Of a DNA stretch of 64,000 nucleotides, positions 12,672 through 45,065 are shown in pieces. A program made the position numbers and the translations under genes. The notes under the pieces are model-generated. The model was given only the letters and a program-made list of their open reading frames with translations. It had not been told where the DNA came from and made no database searches. Position 1 is the stretch's first letter. Each line of letters begins with the position of its first letter. The stretch is from Candidatus Wallbacteria bacterium (GTDB lineage: Bacteria; Muiribacteriota; JAQTZZ01): contig JAQTZZ010000013.1 of NCBI GenBank assembly GCA_028687545.1, positions 1-64,000 on the forward strand, given 5' to 3'.

Positions 12672-12827
12672 CTACCTGAAAAATCTGAACAGCCAGTCAG
12701 TCAGCAGGCCCAAATGGTCTACTTTTCCGGGAGTTTTTTCAGTGTAAGGTTTTTTCAGGAAAGTGATGGCGATCAGCGCGAACGGAATCAAAACCAGCAC
12801 TACCAGAAGTTTTAATAAAAGAGCCAT
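12672..12827 (-). CDS. 51-residue membrane peptide coupled to the TerB-like gene
   Basis: The ATG (12825-12827) overlaps the stop of the upstream TerB-like gene in a TAATG arrangement, a classic sign of translational coupling. The product opens with MALLLKLLVVLVLIPFALIA, one strong transmembrane helix, followed by a short basic cytoplasmic-type tail ending in WLFRFFR. No homologous family is recognised. The coupling makes it much more credible than a random short frame. Confidence 0.55.
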   Translation of the reverse strand: MALLLKLLVVLVLIPFALIAITFLKKPYTEKTPGKVDHLGLLTDWLFRFFR

Positions 12828-13240
12828 TATATGCTTGGGAATACTTTCTTCAGATCTTTTTCGACATCTTCAGGCTTGCCGTACTGGCCGTATTTTTCCA
12901 CCAGTCCGTCGATCTTTTCAAGTTTCTGCTGGTCGATCTTGAAATAGTCGGCTACGAAATAAATAAAGTCTTCCTCACCTTCTGCCAGTTCCTCGTCAGC
13001 TCCTGTCAAAGAGAGCAGTTCGTACATCAGTTTGACCTGCGATCCCAAGTTGCCGAAAGGCTTCAGAGCCTGGCCGAAGTCGAAATCCCCATTATCCAGA
13101 TTGGATATGCCTGTTTCCTTTTTGATCCTGGACAGGTTTTTTTCTTCCTCTTCAGTCAGGATATTGTCGGACTGGGCGATCCGCTTCGAAAGTGCCAGAA
13201 GCGATTTTTTCTGCTCAGGGTTGAAAGATTTTTCAAACAT
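12827..13240 (-). CDS. TerB-like (tellurite resistance TerB / DUF533-type) helical protein
   Basis: 137 residues from the ATG at 13240, five bases after an AGGTGG ribosome site; a GTG at 13249 would add three residues. The protein is all-helical and acidic, with the two-fold 'SD.ILTEEEE' and 'DEELAEGEEDFIYFVADYF' pattern typical of TerB-fold proteins, in which acidic residues bind metal. The family length of ~140 fits. TerB domains are often linked to membrane-associated stress or phage-response complexes. Here it is coupled to a one-helix membrane peptide, which suggests membrane recruitment. A kinase/coiled-coil region lies divergently beside it. Confidence 0.6.
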   Translation of the reverse strand: MFEKSFNPEQKKSLLALSKRIAQSDNILTEEEEKNLSRIKKETGISNLDNGDFDFGQALKPFGNLGSQVKLMYELLSLTGADEELAEGEEDFIYFVADYFKIDQQKLEKIDGLVEKYGQYGKPEDVEKDLKKVFPSI

Positions 13241-13376
13241 TTGCACCACCTGGAAAAAATAAGATTTTTCTAATGATAAACGGGAAACAGGGAAGATTCA
13301 ATCCCCGCAGTTTACAGTGAGCTGCATGAGAAGTAGAATATCAGAATCAAATTTGATACCTGAACCCATCGGCTTT

Positions 13377-13388: not shown

Positions 13389-14921
13389 GTGAGCCATGCT
13401 GTTGTGACGATAGTGGAGGGGATTCCGAAAATCCTGCCCAAGATTATCCATTATCAGGCGGCTCCCAGCCAGGTCGACATCATGTCCAAACTGCTTTATT
13501 CGCATACAGGCGCGCTGGGGGCTTTCGCCTTTCTGGCAGCCGGTGCAGGTGCAGCACTTGCCAAGGGGTACATTGAAAAAGAAATTCTCAAGCGGGAGCT
13601 TGCGCGGCTGCAGGTGCAGCTGAACGGCAGGGCAGCCTGCCTGGAAGAGGAAGACCGCGCCAAGCTGAAGCTGGAACTTGGCGAACTGGAGAGATTCGGT
13701 TCAGAGCTGCTCTCAGAATGCGACTGCTGCATGCTGGAACTGAAACAGGCAGCTGATTCATTGAAACTGATTATCAAACAGTATCAGTTGACCAAACAGA
13801 AAATTGAATTTCTGAAGCTTGAAGAGCTGGAACATGGAGTCCTCGTTAAGGCGTCTGAAGCGGAAGTGGACGCTCTGTTCCTGGCGGCTGAAAACCTGCC
13901 TGAACTCAATCAAAAGAAGGAAATCCAGCAGCTGAAGAAAATCCGGACTGAAAAAAGCACTGACAAAGCAAAAGAATGTGTTAAGCTCGACCGAATCCGG
14001 CAAAAGCTTCAAGAACTGATCAGTATCAATCAAGTGCAGAAAGAAACGGCTGGAATCGGCTTCGCTGAAGCCGCAGCCCTTGCTGTGAGCCGCAAGTCCG
14101 GTAAGATCAGGAAACTGAAAGCCGATTTCCGTAAGTTTTACGGGCGGATCGGGGAACTGGACCCGGATACCCAGGCTTTATTATCAGAACTGGCCGCAGA
14201 AGCCGAGGGAACAGAATCCCACGAGCGTCTGCAGATGATCAGGGATGAAGCGCAGTTGAAATATGGAAAGCTCAAGGAAGATCTGGCCTGGGACAAGGTC
14301 TGCAGGGAAGAGCTGGAATGGCTGGTGGAGCAGTTGATTGAAGTTCCGCAGGCCGGGGCGGTCCTGGAGAAAGTGCGGAAGTTACTCGCATCCAGAATCG
14401 TCACCAGGCAGGAAACTGCCGGAATCTCCAAGCTGGTAAGCGAATTTCTGGCAGAGCAGGCAATGCGGGAAGCCAAAGAACAGGAGCGGGTAGCTGATTC
14501 AGTCCGCCAGGCATTGGAAGCGCTGGGCTATGAAGTGCTGAAGGATTTTCCAGGCGATGATCTGGCTGCTAGATTAAGTCGGGGTGAGGCGGTTTATCTG
14601 GATTCGAAATGGAGCGGATATAAAGTGCTGCTGAAAATGAGCCGGAATGGAGAGCTGATCACCAGGCTGGTGCGGGTGGTAGGAACACCGGATGAGCAGA
14701 AAAGGATCAGTGCGGATCAGCGGCAGAAGGACAGGGAAATCTCCCTGGAATGGTGCAGGGACTATGACAGATTCAAAGCGAAACTTTCTGAACTTGGCTT
14801 CAAGCTGGAAACAAAACTGAGACTTGAACCCGAGGAAAATGAAATCCAATACATAGTGGATGAAAAGATTGCCAGCCGGGACAAGAGAGCCGTCAGTCAG
14901 AATGAAAAAAAGGAAATTTGA
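13389..14921 (+). CDS. 'MSHAVV' coiled-coil protein, copy 1 (partner of the kinase at 14933)
   Basis: 510 residues from the GTG at 13389. After ~30 residues comes a small-residue hydrophobic segment (GALGAFAFLAAGAGAALAKG), possibly a membrane-inserting helix. About 300 residues of charged heptad-like helix follow, rich in Glu, Lys and Leu. A compact C-terminal domain (~110 residues) has the pattern ALGYEV...VYLDSKW..YKVLLK...G..ITRLVRVV and ends in QYIVDEK. The full-length paralog at 20029 shares this order throughout. No known family is recognised. The family kinase starts 11 bp downstream, as also happens with copy 2, so the pair is almost certainly a functional unit. Confidence 0.75.
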   Translation: MSHAVVTIVEGIPKILPKIIHYQAAPSQVDIMSKLLYSHTGALGAFAFLAAGAGAALAKGYIEKEILKRELARLQVQLNGRAACLEEEDRAKLKLELGELERFGSELLSECDCCMLELKQAADSLKLIIKQYQLTKQKIEFLKLEELEHGVLVKASEAEVDALFLAAENLPELNQKKEIQQLKKIRTEKSTDKAKECVKLDRIRQKLQELISINQVQKETAGIGFAEAAALAVSRKSGKIRKLKADFRKFYGRIGELDPDTQALLSELAAEAEGTESHERLQMIRDEAQLKYGKLKEDLAWDKVCREELEWLVEQLIEVPQAGAVLEKVRKLLASRIVTRQETAGISKLVSEFLAEQAMREAKEQERVADSVRQALEALGYEVLKDFPGDDLAARLSRGEAVYLDSKWSGYKVLLKMSRNGELITRLVRVVGTPDEQKRISADQRQKDREISLEWCRDYDRFKAKLSELGFKLETKLRLEPEENEIQYIVDEKIASRDKRAVSQNEKKEI

Positions 14922-14932
14922 ACTGAATTATT

Positions 14933-17344
14933 ATGGCTAAACTGGAAGACTTGTCTGATCGTACGATTGCTGAAGAGCGGACTTTGAATGAATCCGAACG
15001 CACCCTCTCAGATCCGCAGACACAGCCGGATAAAAAAATCAGTGCATTCCGCAGCTACAGGGTGCTGGAACTCCTGCCTGCCTCCGGGGCTGAGGCTGAT
15101 ATTTACAAAGTCACGAAATCAGGCCGGGATTTCATCCTCAAATTATACAGATACGGTAACACTCCCAATACAGAGGCTCTCAGGAAAATCATGGAAATCA
15201 GCCGGAAATTTCCCGGGGACGTGATCCATGTTTTTGAATCTGAATTCGACGAGGAATCCAGGCGTTATTTCGAGATAATGGAATATGTCCGTTTCGGATC
15301 CCTGAAAGATCTCATGGCTGACCGGGATTATTTCACCCATGACAGGATGCTCGAATTGGTCCCTGCATTGATGAAAGGATTGAAAACCCTTCATTCCAAC
15401 AATCTCCTGCACCTTGACCTCAAGCCCTCCAATATTCTGGTGAGAAACCGTTCCCCGCTTGAATTGATTTACACGGACTTCGGAGTTTCTTCGGTGATTG
15501 ACGACGAGATCTCCCGGAAAATGACCATGAATCTGAAGGGTACACCTATGTACTGGTCGCCTGAGGCTTTTACGCAGGTGGTGGGAAGGGAATCAGATTT
15601 CTGGTCAGTCGGAGTAATCATTCTGGAAATCCTGAAAGGCAGGCATCCGCTGCATGGGCTGGACATGCGGAACATCATGTACAGCCTGTCCACGAAAGGG
15701 CTGGAGGTCCCTGGAGACCTGCCCAAAGCCTATCAGCAGCTTCTGAAAGGTCTATTGACGAGAAACCCGGGCCGAAGATGGTCTTTCGCAGAGGTCGAAC
15801 GCTGGCTTTCCGGCGGGACTGAAATACCGGTGTTTTTCGATTTCAAGCCTGAATTCAGAGAGTTCCAGAGTCCGATTTCATTCAACGGCAAGGATTTCAG
15901 TTCCCTGGAGGAACTGCTGCATGCTTTCATTCTGGACGAGGAGAGCTGGATAGAAGGCAGGGAACTCATAGCCGGCGGCAGTCTTGAGGAATGGCTCAGA
16001 CGAAACGGAGAGTATGATTACTGCATCACGATTGAGAAACTCAGAAAAATGGCCAGGAACGACAAGGATTACATGCTGGTGAAGATCACGCTGGCCTATC
16101 TTAAAGGAACTGGATTTGTTTTCTACGGGAAATTGATATCTTTTGAAAACGTTTTTCTCTTTGCCTCCAGGGTGCTCTCCGGAAATTTTTCCCACGGGGA
16201 GCTTTGCATAGTCAAGGCCCTGATGAGCGGAGCGCTTCTCAACTATTACAAGGATTATCTGAGGGCGATCCAGAAAGATGAAGACAGGGACGAGTTTCAT
16301 CAGCTGCTCTCCGTGATGCGCTCCGAGCATGCGAAAGAATCCTTTGAAAGCAGTCTGGCCGGACTGCTGCAGATTTTCGATTTCTGGTGGAAACCAGAGG
16401 AATATTATTTCCCTGCTGACTGCTCCATTCATGAGAAGGTTGTTTTCCTGCGCGAGCACGCCGGTTGCATGATGAAGAAAAAAGACTTCCTGCTCCTCAG
16501 GGAGCAGTATTTTATCCCTATGGAAATGGTGGAAGGGCTGCAGAGCGGGGAACTCCAGCTGGTCCATAATTATCTGCAGGAGTTGAAGAGGCTCAGGGAG
16601 GAACGGCTTCTGGTGGAGCGTGAGAAAGTCGGGCCGAATGTGGTCACGCTCAAGGAATATCAGGAATTCGGAAAACTCTGCAAGAACAGGGTCGACATTT
16701 CTCTATACCTGATCATTCCATCGCTTCTGAAATCTCTTTCCAGTCCGAGATTTTTCAGGTATGAATTCTGCAAGTTGAGCCAGTATCTGAAGAGCCTCAG
16801 GCAGGCAGAGATAGAATGGAGCAAATATGACAAGCGGCTGCTGCGGGAACTGGAAGACGTTCTTCAGGCTCCCCGCTTTGCGGATGTAAAACTGCATGAA
16901 TTGCTGATTACGGGTTTGATGAGCGCATTTCTATTTCTGGAACTGCAGTATCTGCTGAAACCGTTGTTCCCGGAGTCGATCCAGGCAGAATCAGGTCTGA
17001 ATGCAGGATTGATACTTCTCGCGGCTGGAATCGGGCTGTTTTCCGGAGCTTACAAATGGGTGGATTCCCTGGAAGGCGAGAGAATGGTTTCGTTCGGCAA
17101 AGGCTTTTTCCTCGGTGCATCTTTGTCACTTTTATTTTTATTCCTGTTGAAATGGACCGTGCCCGGCACAAGCATGTTTGTCACTGCAGCCAGCGGTTTT
17201 GTTTTCGGTTTTGCGATCTGTTATCTGATCTATGATTATTACGGGGCAAAAAAAATAGCCAGGATTTACGAAGATTATCTCTACCGGATTCTGGCAGTGG
17301 AAGCGCAGAACAAGTCAGACAGGCTCAGCGACCGGAAAAGGTGA
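14933..17344 (+). CDS. Membrane-anchored Ser/Thr protein kinase, family copy 1
   Basis: 803 residues. Residues 1-30 carry repeated phospho-acceptor-like motifs (SDRTIAEERT, SERTLSD). The kinase domain spans ~40-295 with the ATP lysine in FILKLYRYG, catalytic HLDLKPSN at ~160, TDFGVSS at ~182 and a SPEAF activation-segment end. The glycine loop is degenerate (PASGAEADIYK), but catalytic residues are present. A ~350-residue middle conserved among paralogs but not recognised (FDFWWKPEE, YLKGTGFVFYGKL) follows, then about four transmembrane helices (~655-780) and a short basic tail. It lies 11 bp after MSHAVV copy 1. Its 3' end overlaps the opposite-strand kinase by 20 bp. Confidence 0.9.
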   Translation: MAKLEDLSDRTIAEERTLNESERTLSDPQTQPDKKISAFRSYRVLELLPASGAEADIYKVTKSGRDFILKLYRYGNTPNTEALRKIMEISRKFPGDVIHVFESEFDEESRRYFEIMEYVRFGSLKDLMADRDYFTHDRMLELVPALMKGLKTLHSNNLLHLDLKPSNILVRNRSPLELIYTDFGVSSVIDDEISRKMTMNLKGTPMYWSPEAFTQVVGRESDFWSVGVIILEILKGRHPLHGLDMRNIMYSLSTKGLEVPGDLPKAYQQLLKGLLTRNPGRRWSFAEVERWLSGGTEIPVFFDFKPEFREFQSPISFNGKDFSSLEELLHAFILDEESWIEGRELIAGGSLEEWLRRNGEYDYCITIEKLRKMARNDKDYMLVKITLAYLKGTGFVFYGKLISFENVFLFASRVLSGNFSHGELCIVKALMSGALLNYYKDYLRAIQKDEDRDEFHQLLSVMRSEHAKESFESSLAGLLQIFDFWWKPEEYYFPADCSIHEKVVFLREHAGCMMKKKDFLLLREQYFIPMEMVEGLQSGELQLVHNYLQELKRLREERLLVEREKVGPNVVTLKEYQEFGKLCKNRVDISLYLIIPSLLKSLSSPRFFRYEFCKLSQYLKSLRQAEIEWSKYDKRLLRELEDVLQAPRFADVKLHELLITGLMSAFLFLELQYLLKPLFPESIQAESGLNAGLILLAAGIGLFSGAYKWVDSLEGERMVSFGKGFFLGASLSLLFLFLLKWTVPGTSMFVTAASGFVFGFAICYLIYDYYGAKKIARIYEDYLYRILAVEAQNKSDRLSDRKR

Positions 17345-19928
17345 TTTTAAGCGGCAGTTTCCCGCCTGCATTGAAGAAACGGAAATAGGCCAGCAGCCGT
17401 TTTCCCGGTAGTTTGAGTTCCTCATCGGGTTTCGGTTCCACTGACTCGATTTTTACTTGATCAGTTACAGTCACCAGCACTGCGTGATGCCTAGACGCGC
17501 AATACGGATAATCCAGGGCTGAAAAGATGGCTTTACTGCCGTTCCTGACGATCAGATCTGAGCCCTCGAATTCAGCAGCCATGAAAACAGCCTCACCGTT
17601 ATTCACGGGTTCGGCCGGGATTACTTGGGCTACAAATCTGCCGAACTTGGAAGAAGTTTTCTTGTATTTTACTTCGAGAATCCTGCCCCTTGAGTCAGTG
17701 AAAGGAGTGAGCGGAACATTATGCAGCATCAGGGGAATCGATTTGACCTGTTCAGAGGCATAAATATAATCAGCATAGATTTCCAGCAGACCGCATTTTT
17801 CCCCTTCGATCTGGTAGCTGGAAATCCGGCTGTAGCTGAAGTGCTTTGAGAATGCCTGCGGATTCATTCTCTGAAAGCAGGCGCGTTTGGCGAATTTCAC
17901 CGAGATACTCAGGAGTTCAGGTGAGATCCCTTCAGCCGAAAAACCGTCCATCGGCCAGTTGTCGATCCGTTCCCGGATTTCTTCCATGGTGAGAAAATCG
18001 AACTCTGACCCGGTGTTTTTGGCGATCTGGAGATACTTGAGGGCTTTTTCCTCGTCCCCTGTCAGGCGGTTGATCCGATAGAGGAGATAGTAATTAAATG
18101 CTTTGCCGGAATCGTTGCGGTCGAGGCCGATGGCTCTGCGCAGCTCATTGCAGGCTGCTTCGTTCCTGCCGAGGGATGCATAGGCCCTGCCCCGGTATGC
18201 CGCAGCCCAGTCCAGCGACGGATCGGTTGTCGCGATGGTGTCGAGTCTGGCTAGGGCGTCCTCAAACCTTCCGACATACAGCAGCTGCTGTATGATAAGC
18301 AGATTCAGGTTTGGGAGATCCGGGTATTTCCTGACCCGTTCCTCGAGCAGGGAGATGGCCGATTCGGTCTCGCCCAGGACCATCAGGTTTTCAGCCATTC
18401 CGAGATAGGCAGCGTTGTTTTCAGGATTCAATTCAATGAATCTGGACAGGCTGGACATGGATTTGTCGAAATCAGTGACAGCTTCCAGTACCATGAAATT
18501 CATCCAGTGCATCAGAATATCGTTTGCATAAAGTTGCAGGTAACTGCTGCAGAGCTTGGCTGCAGCGGAATAATCATGCTTCAGGGCTTTCTCCAGAATA
18601 TCGAGTTTCAGCCTTTCCTGTTCTGGCAGCGAATCGTAAGCTTTTTTTGCTTCAGCCAGGAGAGGTATGGTTCTCTTCGATTCTCCGATTGTATTATACG
18701 AGAAATACAGAAGCAGGAGAGAATCCACGAGCAGCGGATTCATTTCCAGGGACTGGACAAGCTTGTCGATGGCCTGCTCGTACCAGAAATTCACGAAATA
18801 ATCGGTCTTCGCTTCCTCGAACAGTGCCCTGGCCGCGGAATCAGAGCGCACGGCTGATTTTGCCGGCTTTCTGGCTGTGGAAACTTCTTTCCTTTCAATC
18901 TGGGGTATTTCCGAGATTATTTTAGGGGAGTTCCCGGTCATGTTCAGAAAGAAATCACGGATACCCTGGAAAATCGGACTGATCCGGTCTGCGGAGCGGA
19001 TCTCATCCGCCAGTTCTGAGGTGGATTGATACCTCTCTTCCTGTTCGCTTTCCAGGCATTTCATGATGATGTGATTGACCTGAGAGGGGATTTTCGGGTT
19101 AAGGGTGCGTGGTTCGGGAAAATCAGCCCTGGTGATGCGTCCGATGGTAGCTGCCAGTTCCTCTTCCTCCACGGGTCTGCGCAGGGTGCACAGCTCATAA
19201 TAAACTACACCCAGGCTGAAAACATCGGTCTGGGGTGTAATCTTTCCTTTCTTTCCCATGAATTGCTCTGGAGCCATGTAATTCATTGTGCCCAGGATCT
19301 GGTCTGAGCGAGTCAGATCGTGCCCGTCCCCGGTTTTAGCCAGGCCAAAGTCCACCAGTTTGACTGCTCCGTTCCGGCAGATGAGAATATTGGAGGGCTT
19401 GATGTCGCGATGAGTGATTCCCAGTTTGTGTACTTCAGACAGGGTATCCGCGATTCCTGCGATCAGGGAACTGGCTTTACCGAGATACTCCGGATCTTCC
19501 AGAGGATCCGTCAGGGGATCGCGCAGAAAATATGGCTGGTCTGGTGTTGACTCTTTCAGATAGCCCATTTCCAGAAGTTCTTCTGGTTTGTATTTCCCTT
19601 CAGAAAACAACTGGGCTTTTTTCAGGAAACTGTCCAGCGAAGCTCCTTCCACGTATTCCATCACATAATAGGGATGATTCAGATGTTCACCGAAGGCGTA
19701 AATCTGGACCACTCCCGGATGCCTGCATTGAGCAAGCAGCTTGGCTTCCCTGAGAAACCGCTCCCTGCTCTTGTCGTCAGCGGATGTCCCCATCAGCTTG
19801 ATCGCTACCAGGCGGTCCAGCGCAGGATCATGGGCCTTGTAAACAGCACCCATCCCGCCTTCGCCGATCTTATCGGAGACTGCACAGCCGGAGAGGGTTG
19901 TGCCACTCTGAAGTTCAATTTCTTTCAT
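17325..19928 (-). CDS. Ser/Thr protein kinase with C-terminal TPR repeats
   Basis: 867 residues. Unlike the four paralogous kinases here, this has a canonical Hanks domain: GEGGMGAVYK glycine loop, VAIKLMG lysine, THRDIKPSN catalytic loop, VDFGLAK and APEQF. It occupies residues ~15-320. A Ser/Lys-rich linker and a series of TPR-like helices (~365-650) follow, then a beta-rich C-terminal region. No transmembrane helix is obvious, so it is probably cytoplasmic. It sits between the two MSHAVV-kinase pairs on the opposite strand, converging with the first and diverging from the second with ~100 bp between starts. Its substrates may include the neighbouring kinases; that is inference. Confidence 0.9.
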   Translation of the reverse strand: MKEIELQSGTTLSGCAVSDKIGEGGMGAVYKAHDPALDRLVAIKLMGTSADDKSRERFLREAKLLAQCRHPGVVQIYAFGEHLNHPYYVMEYVEGASLDSFLKKAQLFSEGKYKPEELLEMGYLKESTPDQPYFLRDPLTDPLEDPEYLGKASSLIAGIADTLSEVHKLGITHRDIKPSNILICRNGAVKLVDFGLAKTGDGHDLTRSDQILGTMNYMAPEQFMGKKGKITPQTDVFSLGVVYYELCTLRRPVEEEELAATIGRITRADFPEPRTLNPKIPSQVNHIIMKCLESEQEERYQSTSELADEIRSADRISPIFQGIRDFFLNMTGNSPKIISEIPQIERKEVSTARKPAKSAVRSDSAARALFEEAKTDYFVNFWYEQAIDKLVQSLEMNPLLVDSLLLLYFSYNTIGESKRTIPLLAEAKKAYDSLPEQERLKLDILEKALKHDYSAAAKLCSSYLQLYANDILMHWMNFMVLEAVTDFDKSMSSLSRFIELNPENNAAYLGMAENLMVLGETESAISLLEERVRKYPDLPNLNLLIIQQLLYVGRFEDALARLDTIATTDPSLDWAAAYRGRAYASLGRNEAACNELRRAIGLDRNDSGKAFNYYLLYRINRLTGDEEKALKYLQIAKNTGSEFDFLTMEEIRERIDNWPMDGFSAEGISPELLSISVKFAKRACFQRMNPQAFSKHFSYSRISSYQIEGEKCGLLEIYADYIYASEQVKSIPLMLHNVPLTPFTDSRGRILEVKYKKTSSKFGRFVAQVIPAEPVNNGEAVFMAAEFEGSDLIVRNGSKAIFSALDYPYCASRHHAVLVTVTDQVKIESVEPKPDEELKLPGKRLLAYFRFFNAGGKLPLKITFSGR

Positions 19929-20028
19929 ACTTTCAGATTAACAACGCAGGCCGTATTTGTCAAAATGACAGGGTGCTGCGAGTTTACAGGGTTCCGGAAA
20001 AAATGTAAGATGAATTCAAGGGGGAAAA

Positions 20029-21501
20029 ATGAGCCATGCCGTCGTGCTGACACCCACCCAGGTGCTTGGCAACTTACTTTTCACGCCGACTACTGCGGGT
20101 GCTCTGGCTTTCATAGCTGCCGGCGCCGGCGCAGCCCTGGTCAAAGGTTACATTGAGAAGGAAATGCTGGGAAAGCAGCTGGAAAACCTCCAGATCGAGC
20201 AGCGTTCCCAGATCAGGGAACTGGAAGAGACAGATGGCAGGATGATTTCCGTAGAGCTTGAAAAGCTGGCTCTCAGGAACAAGGAACTGCTGACCGAGTG
20301 CTGCGCAAACAATATTTTTCAATTAAAGGAAAAAGGGTGTCTTCTTAAGATGATCATCCACGAACATCAGGAAGTGAGGCAGAAAATCGAGTTTCTGAAG
20401 ATTGACGCCCAGGAATGCAGGAGGCATCTCGAGGTCGTGGAATCCGCCATCTGTGAATGCTTCGATAAAATCAAGTCTTTCCCGTCCAGCGATGGTCTTG
20501 CCAGGGAACTGGAAAGGCTGGAACAGCTCCGTCAGGAAGCCGGGAAATCCTCCCTGCGACAGAAATGCGCATCCCTGGATGAGATCAGGGAGACGCTTGA
20601 AATGATCATCCGGATTTACGAGACCACGAGAGAAACTGAGAAGATCAATCTCAGCGAAAAATTAATGAATCTGGAAAGCCCTAAAGCTTCCAGAATCAGA
20701 ATCCACAGAACAGAAATCTCGAGATTTTTCGATAAAATCGGACAGCTGGACCGTGCAACCCAGAGTTCCCTGCAAAGTCTTGTAAAAGAGTCCGGGGCTG
20801 AGGAATCCCTTGACCGCCTGCAGCTGGTTGAAAATGAAATCAAGCTGAAATACAGCCGGCTCAAAGGGGAGCTGTCCTGGGACAAAGTGCACAGGGAAGA
20901 ACTCGGCCGGCTGCTGGCTCTACTTTCACAAAACCCGAGGGCCGGAAAAATTACGATGGCGATAGAAAAAGTCCTTTCAACTCCCCTGATTTCCAAGGAA
21001 AACGCAGACCGGATCTCGAAATCGGCAAGTGATTTTCTGATGAAGGAAACCGGAAGCGACATCCGGGCGGATGAAGCGATCGGCAAGGTCGGGCAGGCCC
21101 TGGCAGCTCTAGGATATGACGTCATGACCGGCAGTGATGGAGAGGTAGCGGGAAAACTGAAGCGTGGAGAAGTAGTCTATCTCGACACAAAGTGGAGAGA
21201 GTATAAAGTAATGCTCAAGTTCAGCGGAAACGGGGAAATTGTGACCAGAATGGTCCGGGTTGTAACTGCTGCACAGGCGAAACAGGAAATTTCCATGCAT
21301 CAGAAGCTCAAAGACCGTGAAATAGCATCTGAATGGTGCAGTGAGTACGATCAGTTCCTGGCTCAGCTTGCCAGCCTCGGACTCCCGATGGACGTAAAAA
21401 TCCGCAAGGAACCTGACGAAGACCTGCAATATATTGTGGATGAAAAACCGGCAGGAAAGGAGAAAGGCGGACGGACGGAACGGAAGTCGCTGAAAGCCTG
21501 A
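20029..21501 (+). CDS. 'MSHAVV' coiled-coil protein, copy 2 (partner of the kinase at 21510)
   Basis: 490 residues, starting at an ATG after AAGGGGG. Same plan as copy 1: MSHAVV start, small-residue hydrophobic segment (GALAFIAAGAGAALVKGYIEK, residues ~25-45), long charged helical region, then the C-terminal domain (ALGYDV...VYLDTKWREYKVMLKF...RMVRVV...QYIVDEK). Cys residues near 85-90 are conserved with copy 1. The kinase gene starts 8 bp later. Conservation of both ends and of gene order suggests that this protein receives or localises the kinase signal, perhaps at the membrane. The function is otherwise unknown. Confidence 0.75.
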   Translation: MSHAVVLTPTQVLGNLLFTPTTAGALAFIAAGAGAALVKGYIEKEMLGKQLENLQIEQRSQIRELEETDGRMISVELEKLALRNKELLTECCANNIFQLKEKGCLLKMIIHEHQEVRQKIEFLKIDAQECRRHLEVVESAICECFDKIKSFPSSDGLARELERLEQLRQEAGKSSLRQKCASLDEIRETLEMIIRIYETTRETEKINLSEKLMNLESPKASRIRIHRTEISRFFDKIGQLDRATQSSLQSLVKESGAEESLDRLQLVENEIKLKYSRLKGELSWDKVHREELGRLLALLSQNPRAGKITMAIEKVLSTPLISKENADRISKSASDFLMKETGSDIRADEAIGKVGQALAALGYDVMTGSDGEVAGKLKRGEVVYLDTKWREYKVMLKFSGNGEIVTRMVRVVTAAQAKQEISMHQKLKDREIASEWCSEYDQFLAQLASLGLPMDVKIRKEPDEDLQYIVDEKPAGKEKGGRTERKSLKA

Positions 21502-21509
21502 AAACTTGA

Positions 21510-23921
21510 ATGTCCAGTCAACCGGAAAATTCATCTGAAATCACCCGTTGCGAAGATAGAACCATCATCGAATCAGATAGAACTGCCGGCGGCGGCCCGG
21601 GCTCAGACACTCCCAGGAAAATCAACAGCTTCCGTGGATACCGCGTGCTGGAAATGTATCCGGCCGCTGGTGCGGAAGCCGATATCTACAGAGTCGGGAA
21701 AGACGGCCTGGATTTCATTCTGAAATTGTATCGCTTCGGCAATACCCCGAATCTGGAAGCATTGAGCAAAGCCCGGGAAATCGGCGAGAAATTTCCAGAC
21801 GACCTGATCCGGATTTATGAATCTGATTTCGATCCGGATTTGAAGAGATACTTTGAGGTGATGGAATATGTCCGTTTCGGTTCCCTGAAAGACCTGATTG
21901 CCGAACGTTTTTTTTCAGGAGACAGGTTTAACCTGCTGCTCAGGGAAATGCTCAATGGTTTGAAAATCCTTCATTCCAACAATCTGCTGCATCTTGACCT
22001 CAAACCATCCAATGTGCTGGTGCGCAGCCTGGAACCGCTGAAACTGGTCTTCACTGATTTCGGAGTTTCTTCAGTAATCGATGACGAAATTTCCCGCAAA
22101 ATGACCATGAATCTGAAAGGCACTCCTCTCTATTGGTCACCAGAAGCCTTTACCCAGGTGGTGGGACGCGAATCTGATTTCTGGTCCCTTGGCATTGTCC
22201 TGCTCGAGATTCTGACACTTAAGCATCCGTTTCAGGGCCTGGACATGAGAAACATCATGTACACCCTGTCCACCAAAGGAGTTGAGGTGCCGGTAATTCT
22301 TGAACCGTCGCATCAATTACTGTTGAAAGGCCTGCTGACCAGAAACCCCAAAAAAAGATGGGGAATCGCTGAACTTGAACGATGGCTTTCAGGTGAACTG
22401 GAAATTGATATTTTTTTCGACTACAGGTCTGAATCAAAGGAATATCAGATCCCTTTTTCATTTCAGGGGCTGGAGTTTCATTCCCTGACCGAACTGGTGC
22501 ACGCCTTCATCCGTGACGAGGAATGCTGGAATTCTGCCAAGCAGCTCATAGCCAAGGGATTCCTGGAAGACTGGCTAAAAAAGAACGGTGATTACGAGAA
22601 CTGCGTGATCTGCGAGAAATTACGAAAGCTCGCCAAAAACGACCCGGACTTTACCCTGGTCAAGATCATGCTGGCATATCTGAAAGGTACTGGTTTCGTG
22701 TTTTACGGCAGGCTGATCACTTTTGAGAATGTGTTCCTGTTCGCAACCCGGGTGATCGCCGGGCGAGCCGGACAGGGAGAGACTGCCATTGTAAGGGCTG
22801 TCGTGACAGGAGCCCTGCATACTTATTACCTGGATTACCTGACCGCAGTCCAGAAAGATCCTGAACAGGATGATTTCAGCCAGCTGCTTTCAGTGATGAA
22901 ATTCAATCTTCCGAAGATTTCTCTTGAAGACAGCCTGACCAGCCTGTTCCGGATTTTTGATTTCTGGTGGAAACCAGGAGAGTTTTTTTTTCCTGAAAAA
23001 CACACGATCAAGGAAAAGCTGTCTTTTTTAAAAAACCATGCCGACAGCCTGCTCAAGAAAAAGGAACTGCAGCAGATACAGGAGCGGTATTTCATCCCGC
23101 TGGAACTGGCGGAAAATCTCGGCAGTCAGGATCTCCAGGAAGTGATCGATGCCCTGGAAATACTGAAAAAAATGCGTGAAGACAAGGCCCTGATTGAAAA
23201 GGACAGGATCAGCGATGAAGTATTTTCCGTGAAAGACTATCTCCAGATCGGGAAATTCTGGAAATTCAAGGTGGAAGTCCAGCTCTACCTGAAAATCGCG
23301 AGCCTCCTGCAGGCAGTGGAAAGGCCCAGATTCAAGGGGCATGAATTCCACCAGCTGCGGGAGTATCTGATGGTCCTGAGAGGCCCTGATGTGGAATGGA
23401 CAAAATATGACCTGGAAGCCTTGAAAAATCTGCTGCAAGCCATCAAACCGCACCGTTATTTCAACAGTTCTGTTTTTCTGACCCTGTCCTCCGGGATTGC
23501 GCTCGCCCTGATTTTTGTGATTCTGGACTCTATCTGCCTTTACCTGCTGGGAGATATGCTGATGGGTAATTCCCTGCTGGGTTCTATGGTTCTGCTTGCG
23601 CTTGGCTGCGGATTGTTCCTTGGCACCTATTCGACCATTGACGCATTTACCGGGGACAGGATCGCATCATTCGGCCGGGGTTTCTTCTCCGGTGTGATCG
23701 GAACTCTGGTATTGGAGTTTATGCTGAGATCGATACTCAGAACCATGGGGCCACTCTCGCTTCTCTGCAGCGGATTTCCGGCAGGTGCCGGACTGTATCT
23801 CCTCTGGTGCGACTATTACAGGGAACGCAGGATCAGCCGTGTCTACGAGAGTTTTTTATACAGAATCACCGCAGTAGTGAATCAGGATCTGAAATATGGG
23901 GCACAGTCCCAGGGGAAATAA
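21510..23921 (+). CDS. Membrane-anchored Ser/Thr protein kinase, family copy 2
   Basis: 803 residues, the same length as copy 1. The N-terminus has CEDRTIIESDRT acceptor-like motifs. The kinase domain contains FILKLYRFG, HLDLKPSN at ~160, TDFGVSS and SPEAF. The middle region keeps the family landmarks (FDFWWKPGE, YLKGTGFVFYGRL), and the C-terminus has about four membrane helices followed by RISRVYESFLYRI. All catalytic residues appear intact, although the glycine loop reads PAAGAEADIYR. It directly follows MSHAVV copy 2 and converges with the secreted-protein gene at 23942 after 20 bp. Confidence 0.9.
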   Translation: MSSQPENSSEITRCEDRTIIESDRTAGGGPGSDTPRKINSFRGYRVLEMYPAAGAEADIYRVGKDGLDFILKLYRFGNTPNLEALSKAREIGEKFPDDLIRIYESDFDPDLKRYFEVMEYVRFGSLKDLIAERFFSGDRFNLLLREMLNGLKILHSNNLLHLDLKPSNVLVRSLEPLKLVFTDFGVSSVIDDEISRKMTMNLKGTPLYWSPEAFTQVVGRESDFWSLGIVLLEILTLKHPFQGLDMRNIMYTLSTKGVEVPVILEPSHQLLLKGLLTRNPKKRWGIAELERWLSGELEIDIFFDYRSESKEYQIPFSFQGLEFHSLTELVHAFIRDEECWNSAKQLIAKGFLEDWLKKNGDYENCVICEKLRKLAKNDPDFTLVKIMLAYLKGTGFVFYGRLITFENVFLFATRVIAGRAGQGETAIVRAVVTGALHTYYLDYLTAVQKDPEQDDFSQLLSVMKFNLPKISLEDSLTSLFRIFDFWWKPGEFFFPEKHTIKEKLSFLKNHADSLLKKKELQQIQERYFIPLELAENLGSQDLQEVIDALEILKKMREDKALIEKDRISDEVFSVKDYLQIGKFWKFKVEVQLYLKIASLLQAVERPRFKGHEFHQLREYLMVLRGPDVEWTKYDLEALKNLLQAIKPHRYFNSSVFLTLSSGIALALIFVILDSICLYLLGDMLMGNSLLGSMVLLALGCGLFLGTYSTIDAFTGDRIASFGRGFFSGVIGTLVLEFMLRSILRTMGPLSLLCSGFPAGAGLYLLWCDYYRERRISRVYESFLYRITAVVNQDLKYGAQSQGK

Positions 23922-24953: not shown

Positions 24954-27344
24954 ATGAACAACCTTCACAATCAATCGGGAAAAAATGGTATCAACGATCA
25001 GACAGTCTACGAATCAGACGCTACAATTTCCGAATCCCTGGATGCTTTGCACCCTGAGAGTTTAAGCCAGTTCCGCTCTTACCGGGTTCTGGAGCTTTTT
25101 CCTGCAGCCGGAGCAGAAGCAGACATCTACAAGATCTCAAAAGATGGCCGGATCTACATTCTCAAACTATACAGATATGGCAGCAACCCTAATCTCGAAG
25201 CCCTGAAAAAAGTAAAAGAAATAGGGGAAAAATTCCCCGGAGATGTGGTCAGGATTTATGAATCCGATTTTACCGAGGATTTGAAGAGATATTTCGAGGT
25301 AATGGAGTATGTAGAATATGGTTCCCTAAGGGACCTTCTGGCTGATAAAAATTACATGTCAGGGAACAGATTGAAAGATATACTCGCTGAGATCTTGAAA
25401 GGGTTGAAAACCCTGCATGCCAACAATCTGATCCACCTGGATCTCAAACCTTCCAATGTGCTGGTGAGAAGCCGCGACCCGCTGGACCTGGTGTTCACTG
25501 ATTTCGGGGTTTCTTCAGTGATTGACGATGAAGTTTCCAGGAAAATGACTCTTGGCCTGACTGGAACTCCAGCCTACTGGTCTCCTGAAGCCTTCACCCA
25601 GATTATTGGAAGGGAGTCTGATTTCTGGTCCCTGGGAATGATCATTCTGGAGCATTTAAGCGGCTGCCACCCTTTCCAGGGGCAGGACATGAGGAATATC
25701 ATGTACAGATTATCCACCAAAGGAGTGGAAATCCCTGCAGGGATCGATGGGTCCTGGCGCTTGCTGCTGAGCGGCCTGCTGACCAGAAATCCCAGGAAAA
25801 GGTGGGGATTCGAGCAGGTCCGGAAATGGCTGGCAGGAGAGCGGGAAATTCCGACTCATTTCGATTTCCTGCCTGAAACGAGGAAATATCAAAAGCCATT
25901 TTCCTTCCGCGGCGAGGATGTGTTTTCGCTGGAAGAACTGCTTCATTCAGTGATCCGCAACGAAGATCATTGGGAAGTAGGCCGTACTGCTCTGGGAAAA
26001 GGATTTATCGAAGAATGGCTCAGGATAAACCGGGATTATGATAATAACCTGATTGTGGAAAAATTACGCAAACTCGCAGGATCTGACATTGATTTCGCCC
26101 TGGTCAAGCTTGTACTTGCCTATCTGAAAGGCAATGGATTCGTATATTACGGCAAACTGATAACTTTTGAGAATGTTTTCCTTTTCACTTCCAGAGTGGC
26201 TGCCAGAAAGAATACCCAGGGAGAGGCCTGCATAGTCCGGGCAGTGATCAGTGGAGCATTGCTCGTTTATTACAGAGATTATCTCCTGTCCATTCAGAAA
26301 GACCCTGACAAGGATGAATTTCATCAGCTGCTCGAAGTGATGAAGTATAATCTGCCGAGAGTTTCATTTGACGAGAGCCTGATCAGTCTGTTCAGAATTT
26401 TTGACTTCTGGTGGAAACCCGGGGAATTTTATTTTCCTGAAAACTGCACTGTACGCGAGAAGGTTTTCTTCATAAAAAACCATGCGGACTGTCTGTTGAA
26501 AAAGAGGGAACTTCAAGAGATCAAAAAAAAATTTGCCGTTCCTGAGGAACTTGAGGAGAATCTTCTCAGCCGGGAGATTGAGACTGTGATCGATTCTCTG
26601 CTGATCATGAAAAAAATCAGAGAAAACAATGCCCTGATTGAGAAAGATAATATTCCTGAGGTTTTTTCCGTCAAGGAATATCTGGAAATCGGCAGGATCT
26701 GGAAGAACAAGGTCGATCTGTCTTTGTATCTGAAACTGCCTGATTTGATAAAAGCCCTGGAGTCCCCCAGATATCAGAATTATGAGATAGGAAAGCTCAG
26801 GGAATATCTTCAGATCCTGAAAAGCCTGGATACTGAATGGAAACCCTTTGACAAGGAAATAATCCGGGAAGTTTTGAAAGCAGGTGTGATCCCTTATTCC
26901 TGCCGGAATAAGGCGATCTTTTCAATCCTGTTCGGGATAGCCTTCTGGTTGATTTCTTCAATCGTTTTTATTTTTTTAGCTGCATTTGTCTCCCTTGTTT
27001 CCAATCAGATGCCTTTCTCAGAGAGCACTTTGAATCTTCCTGCCCTGGCTGTCGGCCTCTGGGCAGGAACATATTTTGCGATCGACTCATACAACGGGGA
27101 GCGCGTAATTCCTTTCTGCAAGGGATTCCTGATCGGTACTATCTGCACCTTGCTGATTGAGTACTCAGTCCAGTGGCTTGTCGGGAGCGGAGACAGCCTG
27201 GCCATTCTCGGGTGTGCCGAATTCAGCCTGGGCTTCATCTTCTACTTTTTCTGGCGGGAATACCATCTTGAAACCAGATACAAGCATGTGTATGAGCGTA
27301 ATCTTTATCGGATCCTGGAGATCGTCAACTTTACCATCCATTGA
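24954..27344 (+). CDS. Membrane-anchored Ser/Thr protein kinase, family copy 3
   Basis: 796 residues. The N-terminal motif is more divergent (NDQTVYESDATISES) but keeps Thr next to acidic residues. Kinase landmarks: YILKLYRYG, IHLDLKPSN at ~160, TDFGVSS, SPEAF. The family middle region (FDFWWKPGE, YLKGNGFVYYGKL) and about four C-terminal membrane helices are present. Unlike copies 1 and 2 it has no MSHAVV gene immediately upstream; the preceding gene is the divergent secreted protein. No clear ribosome site precedes the ATG. The secretin gene at 27401 follows after ~56 bp. Confidence 0.9.
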   Translation: MNNLHNQSGKNGINDQTVYESDATISESLDALHPESLSQFRSYRVLELFPAAGAEADIYKISKDGRIYILKLYRYGSNPNLEALKKVKEIGEKFPGDVVRIYESDFTEDLKRYFEVMEYVEYGSLRDLLADKNYMSGNRLKDILAEILKGLKTLHANNLIHLDLKPSNVLVRSRDPLDLVFTDFGVSSVIDDEVSRKMTLGLTGTPAYWSPEAFTQIIGRESDFWSLGMIILEHLSGCHPFQGQDMRNIMYRLSTKGVEIPAGIDGSWRLLLSGLLTRNPRKRWGFEQVRKWLAGEREIPTHFDFLPETRKYQKPFSFRGEDVFSLEELLHSVIRNEDHWEVGRTALGKGFIEEWLRINRDYDNNLIVEKLRKLAGSDIDFALVKLVLAYLKGNGFVYYGKLITFENVFLFTSRVAARKNTQGEACIVRAVISGALLVYYRDYLLSIQKDPDKDEFHQLLEVMKYNLPRVSFDESLISLFRIFDFWWKPGEFYFPENCTVREKVFFIKNHADCLLKKRELQEIKKKFAVPEELEENLLSREIETVIDSLLIMKKIRENNALIEKDNIPEVFSVKEYLEIGRIWKNKVDLSLYLKLPDLIKALESPRYQNYEIGKLREYLQILKSLDTEWKPFDKEIIREVLKAGVIPYSCRNKAIFSILFGIAFWLISSIVFIFLAAFVSLVSNQMPFSESTLNLPALAVGLWAGTYFAIDSYNGERVIPFCKGFLIGTICTLLIEYSVQWLVGSGDSLAILGCAEFSLGFIFYFFWREYHLETRYKHVYERNLYRILEIVNFTIH

Positions 27345-27400
27345 TACCATACAGGCGGTTATTTATTGCATAACGCCTTTCCTTGTGATTGAATATTGGC

Positions 27401-29653
27401 ATGAAGATAAGGCAATTTTTCAGCTTTTCAGTGATCTGGATTCTGACTGCGGTTTTAATCACTTTGTCTGCAGCTTCCTCTGAGGAAAACAAGAAGTTTC
27501 CCATTCTTTACACAGGCAAGCTTCCTGATCATCAAAAGATCGTGGCCAGGACCGAAATTGATACCCATTACCTGCAGGAGCGGGTTGCAGACCTGCTGAA
27601 GGACCAGAAAATCGGCGAGAACGACTACCAGCTCCAGCTTTTCTCCGAATCAGGGGATCTGGTAATCCGTGCCGGGAATGAAAAGATCAGGGACCAGGTT
27701 CTCGAGATTCTCAGAAACGTGGAAAAGTATTATTACACTGTCATCCAGACCAAAACCATTGCGCTCCATTATGCCAATGCAGTGGAACTGGCAGAACTTC
27801 TCAGCAATATTTACAACCCCAAAACTTACATACAGCAGGATGACGGCCAGTTCTTCGTCAAACGTGACCCCTCAGGGATCGACATCTCGCCTGACAACCG
27901 GACCAACTCGATCGTGGTGACTGCTCCGCTCAATCTGATTAATAACCTCCAGGAGACTGTCGCTTCCCTGGATCGACATACCACACAGGTGTTGATCAAG
28001 GTTCTGATCGCGGAAGTCTCACTTGACGAGAATAACCAGTTCGGGGTGGAATGGAATTTCACTGATGGCACATTTCTGGGGAATGACGCCAGCAAGGGCA
28101 AATCAGTGGTCGATTTTGGCTATCAGTCCCAGACCAGCCAGGATGACCTGCTGGGATTAAAGTACAGCGTGCTTTCCGCTGACAGGCTGAAAGCCTTGCT
28201 GCAGATGCTTAAAACCACCAGCAAGATCGATGTTCTCTCCTCTCCGCAGCTTGTGACCTCAGACAACAGCCACGGTTATTTTCAGGAGTCTGTCCGGATC
28301 CCGGTGCTCAAAACCACAGCTACAGCGACAGGAGTGATCAGCACTTCAGTCGAGTACCAGGAAATCGGAATCAAGCTGGAAGTCACACCCAAGATCAATG
28401 TCGACGATTACATCAAGCTCGACGTGGAGCAGACGATCCAGAATATTCTCGAATCAGCCACTGTGCAGAATGCACCTACTTTTTCCAACCGCGTTGTCCA
28501 TACCAGTGTACTGGCTAAAGACGGCAATACAGTAATCATCGGAGGCATGCTTAAGAATAATGAGTCTGTGACCCGCAGGAAGGTCCCTGTTCTCGGGGAC
28601 GCTCCCCTGATCAAAAATGCTTTCCGCAGGAACTTCAAGACTTCCCAGAAGACAGAGCTGATGGTTTTCATCACTCCCAAGATCATCAGGACGGATAAGA
28701 CAATCCAGGAAACAGTAGCAGATTTGAATGCCCCCAGACTGAAAGAAAAACTGGAGAATTCTTCCAGGGATTACTTTGCACTGAGGGAAGAGGCGGGCAG
28801 CAAAGAGATCAAGGTCACTGACGTGGGGGAAGACAGGGTCGTGATCAATGCAGGAAAGGCCGACAATGTCGGGAACAAGGACGAATTCATTCTGGTGCGG
28901 CCCAGCAAGGAATATTACCATCCCCAGACCAACCAGTTGATCGCTGTTGACGAGCTGGAAATCGGCAGGATCAGGATCGAAACCGTCAGTGATAAGACAT
29001 CGATCTGCAACATCCTCTATCTGAACAAGGACGAGAAAGTGCAGCCTGGCGATCTGGTCAGGCCCTCGGCAGGCATGGATTTCGACAGTTTCAAGATGAT
29101 TTCCACTGATTTTTCACTGAAATTCCTGGCAGACAGGCTGCAATGCGGGATAATTTGCGAAGTGCAGAACAGTACCAATTCTCCGCAGATCAAGACGGAA
29201 TTTCCCTGGAAAACCAATGAAGTGCAGTTTTCGATAAAATCCGGAGAGGTTTTTGCCCCTCTCAAATCAGTCTGGAAAGGAGACAGGTACGAAATCTTCT
29301 TCGACAATGTGGTCGAGCCCTTGGAAATTATCAACCTGAAAGTCACTTATTCCCTGCCTATGGACGAGACTGAAGTACTCAATGAGCAGATTAACAATTC
29401 CGAAGCTTATGCCAGGTTCCATTCTTTTGTCGGAGGCAGTACGGGAAATTACCAGCTTTCGATTTCAGCCTGGTTCAGGGGACGCCTGATACTTAGAAAT
29501 TTCGATATTCCTCCGGCAGTGATCGACAATCCTGACGGAAGCTGCACTCTTGTCTGGACCCATCTGGGGTCGGTCCAGTCAGTGGAAGGACAGTTCAGAT
29601 ACGCTGAACCTGAAAAGCTGCTCAAAGCTCTGAAACAGGTAAAAAAACCTTGA
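27401..29653 (+). CDS. Secretin (type II/IV-like outer-membrane channel), copy 1
   Basis: 750 residues from the ATG at 27401; a TTG at 27389 would add four. A signal peptide is followed by N-domains of the secretin_N type (TIALHYANAVELAELLSNIY..., RTNSIVVTAP). The secretin core shows VLIKVLIAEVSLDE and the signature VIIGGMLKNNESVTRRKVPVLGDAPLI...FRR, ending in ELMVFITPKII near residue 430. Beyond the usual end it carries ~320 extra residues, including a beta domain (VVINAGKADNVGNKDEF...VQPGDLVRP) resembling the C-terminal domain of FlgT-like proteins. No secretion ATPase or inner-membrane gene is adjacent. It overlaps the next secretin by 4 bp. Confidence 0.85.
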   Translation: MKIRQFFSFSVIWILTAVLITLSAASSEENKKFPILYTGKLPDHQKIVARTEIDTHYLQERVADLLKDQKIGENDYQLQLFSESGDLVIRAGNEKIRDQVLEILRNVEKYYYTVIQTKTIALHYANAVELAELLSNIYNPKTYIQQDDGQFFVKRDPSGIDISPDNRTNSIVVTAPLNLINNLQETVASLDRHTTQVLIKVLIAEVSLDENNQFGVEWNFTDGTFLGNDASKGKSVVDFGYQSQTSQDDLLGLKYSVLSADRLKALLQMLKTTSKIDVLSSPQLVTSDNSHGYFQESVRIPVLKTTATATGVISTSVEYQEIGIKLEVTPKINVDDYIKLDVEQTIQNILESATVQNAPTFSNRVVHTSVLAKDGNTVIIGGMLKNNESVTRRKVPVLGDAPLIKNAFRRNFKTSQKTELMVFITPKIIRTDKTIQETVADLNAPRLKEKLENSSRDYFALREEAGSKEIKVTDVGEDRVVINAGKADNVGNKDEFILVRPSKEYYHPQTNQLIAVDELEIGRIRIETVSDKTSICNILYLNKDEKVQPGDLVRPSAGMDFDSFKMISTDFSLKFLADRLQCGIICEVQNSTNSPQIKTEFPWKTNEVQFSIKSGEVFAPLKSVWKGDRYEIFFDNVVEPLEIINLKVTYSLPMDETEVLNEQINNSEAYARFHSFVGGSTGNYQLSISAWFRGRLILRNFDIPPAVIDNPDGSCTLVWTHLGSVQSVEGQFRYAEPEKLLKALKQVKKP

Positions 29654-40103: not shown

Positions 40104-42030
40104 ATGGGCTAGAGAGATTGTCAGATTCCTTTCGATCAGACCCCAGTTCGCACTCTGGGGAAACATCTATGACATCTACCCTTTTGAAAAGGACGGACGG
40201 ATCGTCACCTTTAAAATAACTGATTATCTGAGGGAAATTTTAAAAAGCGAGGGCTTTGACCTGATCCTGGAATATGAACCTCTTTATGGATTCTCAATGC
40301 TTGACGGAGATCCTGAAGTATTCAAAAAAATCATGGAAGGCAAAGTAGAACAGAAAGTATCTGAACACAATCCGCGAACTGCTCAGGGCATCGGCATGGC
40401 AGCGACTGCTGTGATGGCTCCAGTACTTGCCGTGGGTGCTGCGGCGATCAAGGGCACTGACTGGCTGATCTCCAGGAATAAACCCCTGCTCTGCTCCCTG
40501 TCCAAAGGATATGACATCATTGAGAAACTTACCCACAACGACCTGGCATATGTGGCTGTGATCCTTAAATATGTTTCAAGGCTTTCCGACATCTGCAGCC
40601 CTGTTGATCAAAGCGAGTTTTACTACCGGCTGTTCCGACTGCTGCACAATTCCAGCCCTAAGATGATCGGTGGCTCCCGCTATCCAAAATTCAATACCAC
40701 GATCTTCGTGATGGACAAGGAAAACGACATCCCTGCCTGGTTCACGATCGGGAACCCTAAAATGAAAGTGATCTCGATCCCCAAGCCGGACAATCAACTC
40801 CGGAAGGCCATCGTGCAGAACGTGGCTAAGAATCTGGGCGGATTTGAAACGATCGAGGAAGTCAAACGAAAAGATTACCTCTCTTTGTTCGTGGATCAGA
40901 CAAACGAGCTCTATGCCAGCGAAATAATTTCCATCGTCAACCTTGCCAAAAAAGAGAACATCTCCTTTGCAGATATCGGGGACGCAATCAAGCGCTATAA
41001 GCTCGGCATCATAGAAAATCCCTGGTCAAAACTTGATCCTGTTAAGATCAATGACTCTGAATCCATTCTGATGAAAAGGGTCAAAGGTCAACCCAGGGCT
41101 CTGCGCAAGGCTGCTGACATCATCAAACGTTCGGTCTACAATCTTTCCGGTTCTCAGTACTCCAAATTCTCCCAGAAACCGAAAGGTGTGATGTTCCTCG
41201 CCGGACCCACAGGAGTAGGAAAGACGGAGCTTGCCAAATCTTTGGCTGAACTGATCTTCGGTTCTGAGACCAGTTATGTGCGTTTCGACATGAGCGAATT
41301 CTCCAGGGAGCACACTGACCAGAGAATGATCGGAGCACCTCCCGGTTATGTCGGTTACGAAGTCGGAGGAGAGCTGACCAATGCAGTCAAGCAGAATCCG
41401 TTTGCAGTCCTGCTGTTCGACGAAATCGAAAAGGCACACCCTAAGATCCTGGATATATTTCTCCAGCTTCTCGATGATGGCAGGCTCTCTTCCGGCCGGG
41501 GTGAAACTGTTTATTTCTCTGAATGTCTAATCATTTTCACCTCTAATCTTGGAGTTTATGAAATCGGGCCTTCAGGCGAAAAAATCCAGCGGATCAAGCC
41601 TGAGATGGGTTATGAGCAGATCGAGCAGAATGTGCGCAACGCCATTGAGGATTATTTCAAGTTCACGATCCAGAGGCCTGAAATTTTGAACAGGATCGGC
41701 GAAAATGTGGTGATTTTCGATTATATCAGGAAAGAAGTGGCAGGACAGATCTTCGAAAAAATGCTTTCCAATGTGGTGGGAAAGCTTACTGAAACCTTCA
41801 GGATCGATATCAGAATGGAGCCTGAATTCAAGGAGAAATTGAGAAGCGTCTGCTGTGAAAATCTGGCCATGGGCGGGCGCGGCATAGGCAACAAAGTGGA
41901 GGAGATCCTGGTGAATCCGATTTCACGTTCATTGTTCCAGCTTTCAGCCAAAGAAGGGGAGATTTACACACTGACGGATATTGAAAAGGAAAACGGCTCA
42001 TGGCAGCTGAAAATGAAAAAAGTGGCCTGA
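40081..42030 (+). CDS. Clp-like AAA+ ATPase with unusual N-terminal region
   Basis: 649 residues. The C-terminal half is a ClpB/ClpA D2-type module: Walker A GPTGVGKTE (~375), FDMSEFSREHT, GAPPGYVGYEVGG pore-type loop, Walker B VLLFDEIEKAHP (~443), TSNLG sensor 1, then a ClpB small domain with MGGRGIGNKVEE. The N-terminal half lacks Walker A but has the ALWGNIYDIYPF pattern of larger ATPases with a degenerate first module. It also has an Ala/Gly-rich hydrophobic segment (~100-125, GMAATAVMAPVLAVGAAAIKG) reminiscent of that in the MSHAVV proteins. It overlaps the kinase gene by 23 bp and the radical SAM gene by 31 bp. A protein-complex remodeller acting on the kinase pathway is the inference. 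Confidence 0.88.
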   Translation: MKLENLPKWAREIVRFLSIRPQFALWGNIYDIYPFEKDGRIVTFKITDYLREILKSEGFDLILEYEPLYGFSMLDGDPEVFKKIMEGKVEQKVSEHNPRTAQGIGMAATAVMAPVLAVGAAAIKGTDWLISRNKPLLCSLSKGYDIIEKLTHNDLAYVAVILKYVSRLSDICSPVDQSEFYYRLFRLLHNSSPKMIGGSRYPKFNTTIFVMDKENDIPAWFTIGNPKMKVISIPKPDNQLRKAIVQNVAKNLGGFETIEEVKRKDYLSLFVDQTNELYASEIISIVNLAKKENISFADIGDAIKRYKLGIIENPWSKLDPVKINDSESILMKRVKGQPRALRKAADIIKRSVYNLSGSQYSKFSQKPKGVMFLAGPTGVGKTELAKSLAELIFGSETSYVRFDMSEFSREHTDQRMIGAPPGYVGYEVGGELTNAVKQNPFAVLLFDEIEKAHPKILDIFLQLLDDGRLSSGRGETVYFSECLIIFTSNLGVYEIGPSGEKIQRIKPEMGYEQIEQNVRNAIEDYFKFTIQRPEILNRIGENVVIFDYIRKEVAGQIFEKMLSNVVGKLTETFRIDIRMEPEFKEKLRSVCCENLAMGGRGIGNKVEEILVNPISRSLFQLSAKEGEIYTLTDIEKENGSWQLKMKKVA

Positions 42031-43148: not shown

Positions 43149-43187
43149 GTCCAAATGCGATCAAAAACCATGTAGGGGGAATCCTGG

Positions 43188-45020: not shown

Positions 45021-45065
45021 AATTGACAGGACGGATAATGCAAATCCAATTTAAGGGAGTGAAAA

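Follow-up and report, generated by a model that had tools for sequence, protein, structure and literature searches.

The 64,000-nucleotide stretch of Candidatus Wallbacteria contig JAQTZZ010000013.1 analyzed here (the window) carries two copies of a gene pair in which a protein beginning MSHAVV, here called a CC protein, precedes a Ser/Thr kinase. The question raised by this locus is what the two proteins do together, and whether they act alone. The original prediction treated them as a duplicated two-gene module. Comparison across genomes instead makes CC and kinase parts of a six-gene operon, kinase-CC-AAA+-radical SAM-FHA/zinc ribbon-PP2C, of which the window carries a form that is duplicated and split, and each of the two genes also occurs without the other. 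We assign a probability of about 0.6 to the interpretation that CC is the adaptor part of a phosphothreonine signaling system whose full form is this single operon. The six-gene system is apparently undescribed in bacteria; literature searches, mostly short of subscription papers, returned no description of the operon.

A six-gene operon and its parts in two phyla

Four Synergistota loci (L114, L116, L118 and L122) hold all six genes in the order kinase-CC-AAA+-radical SAM-FHA-PP2C. The same order is found with the kinase doubled in L125 and L126 and rearranged to AAA+-radical SAM-FHA-PP2C-CC-kinase in L127, and 11 further Synergistota loci contain partial or contig-cut forms. The CC gene directly adjoins the AAA+ gene in 17 of the 19 loci of this phylum and lies three genes away in L127. 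In the window's phylum, G002, from the window genome's own family, keeps kinase-AAA+-radical SAM-FHA contiguous, and G001 keeps AAA+-radical SAM-FHA-kinase contiguous. Catalytic residues are intact in the kinase, AAA+, radical-SAM and PP2C proteins, and the core residues of the FHA domain are intact in most copies.

The survey covered two phyla, with 40 genomes of the window's phylum and 188 Synergistota genomes, several of their contigs being short and search E-values being calculated per genome. The C-terminal domain of CC was found in 27 genomes across both phyla. CC is certain in 8 of the 40 genomes of the window's phylum, and the N-terminal region of the AAA+ protein matches strongly in the same eight and weakly in two others; a ninth CC match (G016:C70) was short and weak and is most likely due to chance. 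In Synergistota, 19 of 188 genomes encode CC and 19 have a strong AAA+ match, with 18 in common. The only strong AAA+ genome of that phylum lacking CC is G199, where the gene lies at a contig end and CC may have been cut off. Co-occurrence of CC with AAA+ is thus 8/8 and 18/19 in the two phyla (hypergeometric P of 1e-8 and 6e-23, values that ignore relatedness and serve as a guide only), and of all the partners the AAA+ ATPase follows CC most closely across genomes, more tightly than the kinase does. A search of a named genome collection gave three matching contigs, from Candidatus Wallbacteria, Candidatus Muiribacteriota and Synergistaceae, the first two coinciding with G002 and G001.

The predicted conservation of the CC-kinase pairing is borne out in both phyla and in both gene orders. 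A kinase of this family adjoins CC in 20 of 26 decidable loci (2/3 in the window's genome, 5/7 in the rest of its phylum and 13/16 in Synergistota; G139, G140 and G190, where a contig ends on the kinase side, are left out), and CC is therefore not a gene found mostly alone or beside unrelated genes. In the window, G002 and G009 CC precedes the kinase, whereas it follows the kinase in G036, G037, G039 and almost all Synergistota. Retention of the pair despite changed order argues for a functional link between CC and kinase, and their physical partnership is plausible.

Adaptor, kinases and AAA+ locus in the window

CC1 (13389-14921, plus strand, GTG start) is followed after 11 bp by the kinase K1 (14933-17344, plus strand), and CC2 (20029-21501, plus strand, ATG start) after 8 bp by K2 (21510-23921, plus strand), which sequence comparison assigns to the K1 family. 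As originally proposed, the two pairs are paralogous: CC1 and CC2 share the MSHAVV start and 41% identity across their whole length, well above chance, and K1 and K2 are 53% identical, including some 500 residues outside the kinase domain, the C-terminal regions among them. A search of the genome with this non-kinase region recovered four members only, K1 to K4. K3 (24954-27344, plus strand) and K4 (37683-40103, plus strand, in a reading frame open from 37632) lie downstream of the pairs without a CC gene, and a third CC paralogue stands on another contig of the genome, without an adjoining kinase, between genes that by eye resemble a methyltransferase and a pseudouridine synthase; none of these had entered the original prediction. 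A tree with moderate support places K1 to K4 in a group apart from the kinase of G002, and CC1 with CC2, so the duplication was local to the window's lineage. A tandem pair of secretin-like genes (27389-31890), whose C-terminal parts give weak FlgT_C-like matches, begins 44 bp after K3, and a TerB-like gene (12827-13249) diverges from CC1.

The two CC proteins have in common an N-terminal Ala/Gly-rich helix (residues ~40-58 in CC1) and a conserved C-terminal domain of ~110 residues (~370-493 in CC1). Both had been noted from the sequence, with QYIVDEK as the end of the domain; this segment is the domain's last strand, and since a basic tail of ~17-20 residues follows it, the protein itself ends further on. 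The middle ~300 residues are rich in Glu, Leu and Lys and poor in Pro. The coiled coil once read into this region holds as a description of composition, but a periodicity test did not establish it: the helical signal does not exceed that of shuffled sequences in CC1 (8.6 vs 8.0 +/- 1.8) and is weakly above it in CC2 (10.8 vs 7.5 +/- 1.8). The CC domain had no match in Pfam (ten CC members scanned) or NCBIfam; the Protein Data Bank (PDB) sequence search gave nothing credible, PHROGs and PADLOC gave no match, and a search of viral contigs for CC relatives found none. Structure models of the C-terminal domain built from 11 and 29 sequences (predicted local distance difference test scores of 67 and 75, predicted template modeling scores of 0.58 and 0.66) order it as helix-helix-three strands-long helix-strand, and fold searches at E <= 0.001 found no PDB match for either model and no viral match for the first. 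Variants of the family include a CC protein starting MSGPKGF in L020 and L021, where the kinase ends in a domain like that of formylglycine-generating enzymes (FGE-sulfatase; Pfam match shown for L021), and in L119 a CC protein that starts with a charged helix, with PP2C and genes for small membrane proteins nearby and no AAA+ gene of the family detectable in the genome.

K1 to K4 and their relatives retain the catalytic Lys, the non-RD HxDxKxxN motif (HLDLKPSN), DFG (DYG in K4) and an APE-like WSPE motif, with an atypical glycine loop, GxEADIY. By these motifs they would be intact-looking Hanks-type kinases. Their C-terminal parts contain several hydrophobic segments, which in K1 are transmembrane-like. 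As had been noticed at the outset, a kinase-TPR gene lies between the two pairs (17325-19928, minus strand). It is of another kinase type, and since it has neither the C-terminal region of the family nor its N-tail motif, it appears not to be related to the CC-kinase system.

About 14 kb downstream of the CC-kinase pairs lie further genes of this system, between 37683 and 45858. K4 overlaps by 23 bp the gene of a ClpB-D2-like AAA+ ATPase (40081-42030, plus strand), which in turn overlaps that of an NrdG-like radical-SAM/Fer4_12 protein with a CxxxCxxC motif (42000-42620, plus strand). The AAA+ protein has Walker A (GPTGVGKT) and Walker B motifs, a GYVG pore loop (present in most copies checked), an RPEILNRI motif, an arginine finger and a D2-small domain; its family-specific N-terminal region is without a Pfam match. 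A zinc-ribbon and FHA phosphothreonine reader with the GR, SRKH and NGT residues (45397-45858, plus strand) follows at a distance. This gap is an insertion of about 2.7-2.8 kb between two 69-bp direct repeats. The first repeat (42570-42638, plus strand) spans the 3' end of the radical-SAM gene and a broken start of the FHA gene; the second (45360-45428, plus strand) is 99% identical and extends into the intact FHA gene. Separation of the radical-SAM gene from the FHA gene is due to this insert (42639-45359), and the order before insertion is K4-AAA+-radical SAM-FHA, as in the same-family relative (L057 of G002).

The insert is low in GC (about 0.41), the genes on either side having 0.48-0.51. 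It encodes a YhcG-like nuclease (43959-45020; PADLOC PDC-S02, E 7e-144) and a second open reading frame (43246-43896) without a convincing family match, and a recombinase was not recognized in it. The duplication that flanks it repeats the radical-SAM/FHA junction and is of a length unusual for a transposon. A 56-nucleotide direct repeat (88% identity; 42858-42913 and 43096-43151, spacing 238) lies in the left, apparently non-coding part.

A putative docking motif and a proposed mechanism

The N-terminal tails of the kinases can hardly be aligned, except that T-[ILVFMR]-x-[E/D] is present in 22 of 22 family members once start sites are corrected, mostly twice, and persists across both phyla (TIAEE, TLNES and TLSDP in K1). 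Strict matches number 37, against 2.9 +/- 1.6 in shuffled tails. With open reading frames as called, at least two copies within 50 residues occur in 18 of 22 kinase frames, a set that includes the unrelated TPR kinase with none, and in 0 of 286 other frames. Related kinases are non-independent samples, and these counts overstate certainty.

FHA domains prefer a threonine with an acidic residue at position +3, and the N-tail motifs are as expected of candidate FHA docking sites. There is precedent for such reading in DgcB, OdhI and GarA, whose N-terminal phosphothreonine is read by FHA domains (PMC6733907), and in the type VI secretion system (T6SS), where FHA reading of a phosphothreonine made by the kinase close to an N-terminus (TssL, Thr14) switches assembly (PMC3953482). 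From the motif, the FHA gene in the operon and these precedents, we infer a cycle of autophosphorylation, docking and reset. The membrane-anchored kinase would take up a signal via its large C-terminal region and phosphorylate the threonines, usually two, of its own N-tail; the FHA protein would dock there, and PP2C would reset the tail. Anchored at the membrane through its Ala/Gly helix, CC would use its conserved C-terminal domain to couple the state of kinase and FHA protein to the AAA+ ATPase, which may unfold or remodel a target protein. The radical-SAM protein might modify a component of the system or sense redox state.

The AAA+ protein, with its Walker A and B motifs, arginine finger and, in most copies checked, the GYVG pore loop known from threading unfoldases, is likely the effector. 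CC, whose Ala/Gly helix occurs in most members and whose C-terminal domain is conserved, is likely the link. More tentatively, and at somewhat less than even odds, Synergistota and Wallbacteria-like bacteria may possess a stand-alone, signal-controlled system for remodeling proteins that is independent of T6SS: kinase N-tail, FHA protein and PP2C would form a phosphothreonine switch, and a new adaptor family, its C-terminal domain likewise new, would let this switch gate a ClpB-like threading ATPase.

Several observations weigh against this interpretation of the system. CC is adjacent to AAA+ in 0 of 10 cases in the window's phylum, and G105 encodes CC without an AAA+ match. Six decidable loci have CC without the kinase (the third copy of the window's genome, G001, G010, G136, G193 and G105). 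The N-terminal hydrophobic helix is not present in the CC proteins of G037, G039, S105 and S187, and membrane anchoring is accordingly not universal. FHA copies in G001 and G037 deviate at the NGT residues, the radical-SAM gene is not present in some operons (L036, L115), and PP2C was seen in Synergistota loci only, no search for it having been made in the window's own genome.

In an alternative reading CC and kinase form a self-contained pair with a function of its own, CC being adaptor or substrate of its own kinase, and the AAA+ and FHA genes are neighbors through operon history only. In its favor, the window, G002 and G009 have the pair and the AAA+ gene at separate places, and CC1/CC2 and K1/K2 arose within the window's lineage. 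Nevertheless CC tracks the AAA+ gene across genomes even when the two are unlinked, the genes form a single operon in Synergistota, and CC proteins also occur without a kinase; we regard a self-contained pair as unlikely. Slightly less probable again is a regulator of envelope assembly (type II secretion, type IV pili) in the window's phylum. It would account for the two secretin genes after K3 and for the prepilin-like genes that adjoin the AAA+ gene in four genomes of the phylum (G009, G010, G037 and G039; loci L059, L060, L061 and L062), but such genes were not seen beside the Synergistota operons inspected, and the linkage was noticed rather than counted against a background. An anti-phage or other conflict system is the least probable of the three, since the patchy distribution, the defense-type nuclease brought by the insert and the resemblance of the kinases to other defense kinases and to mad6 (top PADLOC match, E 3e-39 for K1; top NCBIfam match, 93 bits) are set against a MAD6 cut-off of 460 bits, a match confined to the kinase domain, a CC protein without a PADLOC match, and inspected Synergistota operon flanks of metabolic, transport and regulatory genes rather than defense islands.

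With the six-gene operon, what was an orphan gene pair becomes part of a defined system of six components whose biochemistry can be tested, and a recognizable putative docking motif and a new adaptor domain become available for searches of other bacteria. Should the AAA+ protein prove to be the output, eukaryote-like Ser/Thr signaling would directly control bacterial protein unfolding.

Relation to known systems

Several named families share individual features with this system. MAD6, the MADS kinase, is the best-scoring named family for K1 and also for K4, which reaches 68 bits against the same equivalog cut-off; the match involves the kinase domain alone, and the comparison covers only the kinases. 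DUF1257/Ycf35 proteins, which occur with a Ycf46-like AAA+ protein, resemble CC in that they begin with MS, have an N-terminal Ala/Gly segment and a small domain at the C-terminus, and are paired with an AAA+ partner. PF06868 (DUF1257/Ycf35) matched none of the ten CC members scanned and nothing in the window's genome. Profile comparison by hhalign gave 26.8 against 12.2 +/- 2.2 for column-shuffled profiles (maximum 19.5 of 200), with a probability of 8-21% and an alignment that shifts as sequences are added. Membership of the CC domain in DUF1257/Ycf35 was rejected for want of a Pfam match and because the profile alignment is unstable; the layout is suggestive, and a remote relation is a lead only. 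Homology of the N-terminal helices found no support in a one-column alignment, and the N-terminal region of the AAA+ protein showed no relation to that of Ycf46. The phylum's own DUF1257 proteins (L074-L082) have an Ala/Gly N-terminal segment. Genes for a Ycf46-like AAA+ protein and a TPR-like protein accompany them, joined in several loci by a small open reading frame, in a parallel small-protein-plus-AAA+ arrangement.

The AAA+ protein resembles the second AAA+ module of ClpB and ClpA in its Walker motifs, pore loop, arginine finger and D2-small domain. Unlike those proteins it has a single module behind its family-specific N-terminal region, and it scores far under the equivalog cut-offs of ClpB and ClpA, with 244 bits for ClpB (cut-off 1232), and also under that of ClpV/TssH, with a lower 212 bits (TIGR03345, cut-off 885).

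The closest parallel in logic is the T6SS threonine-phosphorylation pathway, in which the kinase PpkA, the PP2C phosphatase PppA and Fha operate with the AAA+ ATPase ClpV. Common to both is a gene set with a membrane Thr kinase, a PP2C, an FHA reader and a Clp/ClpB-class AAA+ protein; kinase, PP2C and FHA are encoded together in seven loci (L114, L116, L118, L122, L125, L126 and L127), and the window has kinase and FHA. The sheath protein TssC/VipB (PF05943) is absent from 40 of 40 genomes of the phylum, including the window's own, and was detected in an E. coli control. The present system differs from the T6SS pathway in its additional CC and radical-SAM genes and in carrying the motif on the kinase itself, not on TssL. 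By analogy, it would work like the T6SS threonine-phosphorylation pathway without belonging to it, adding a T6SS-independent case of a kinase-FHA-phosphatase circuit tied to a Clp-class unfoldase.

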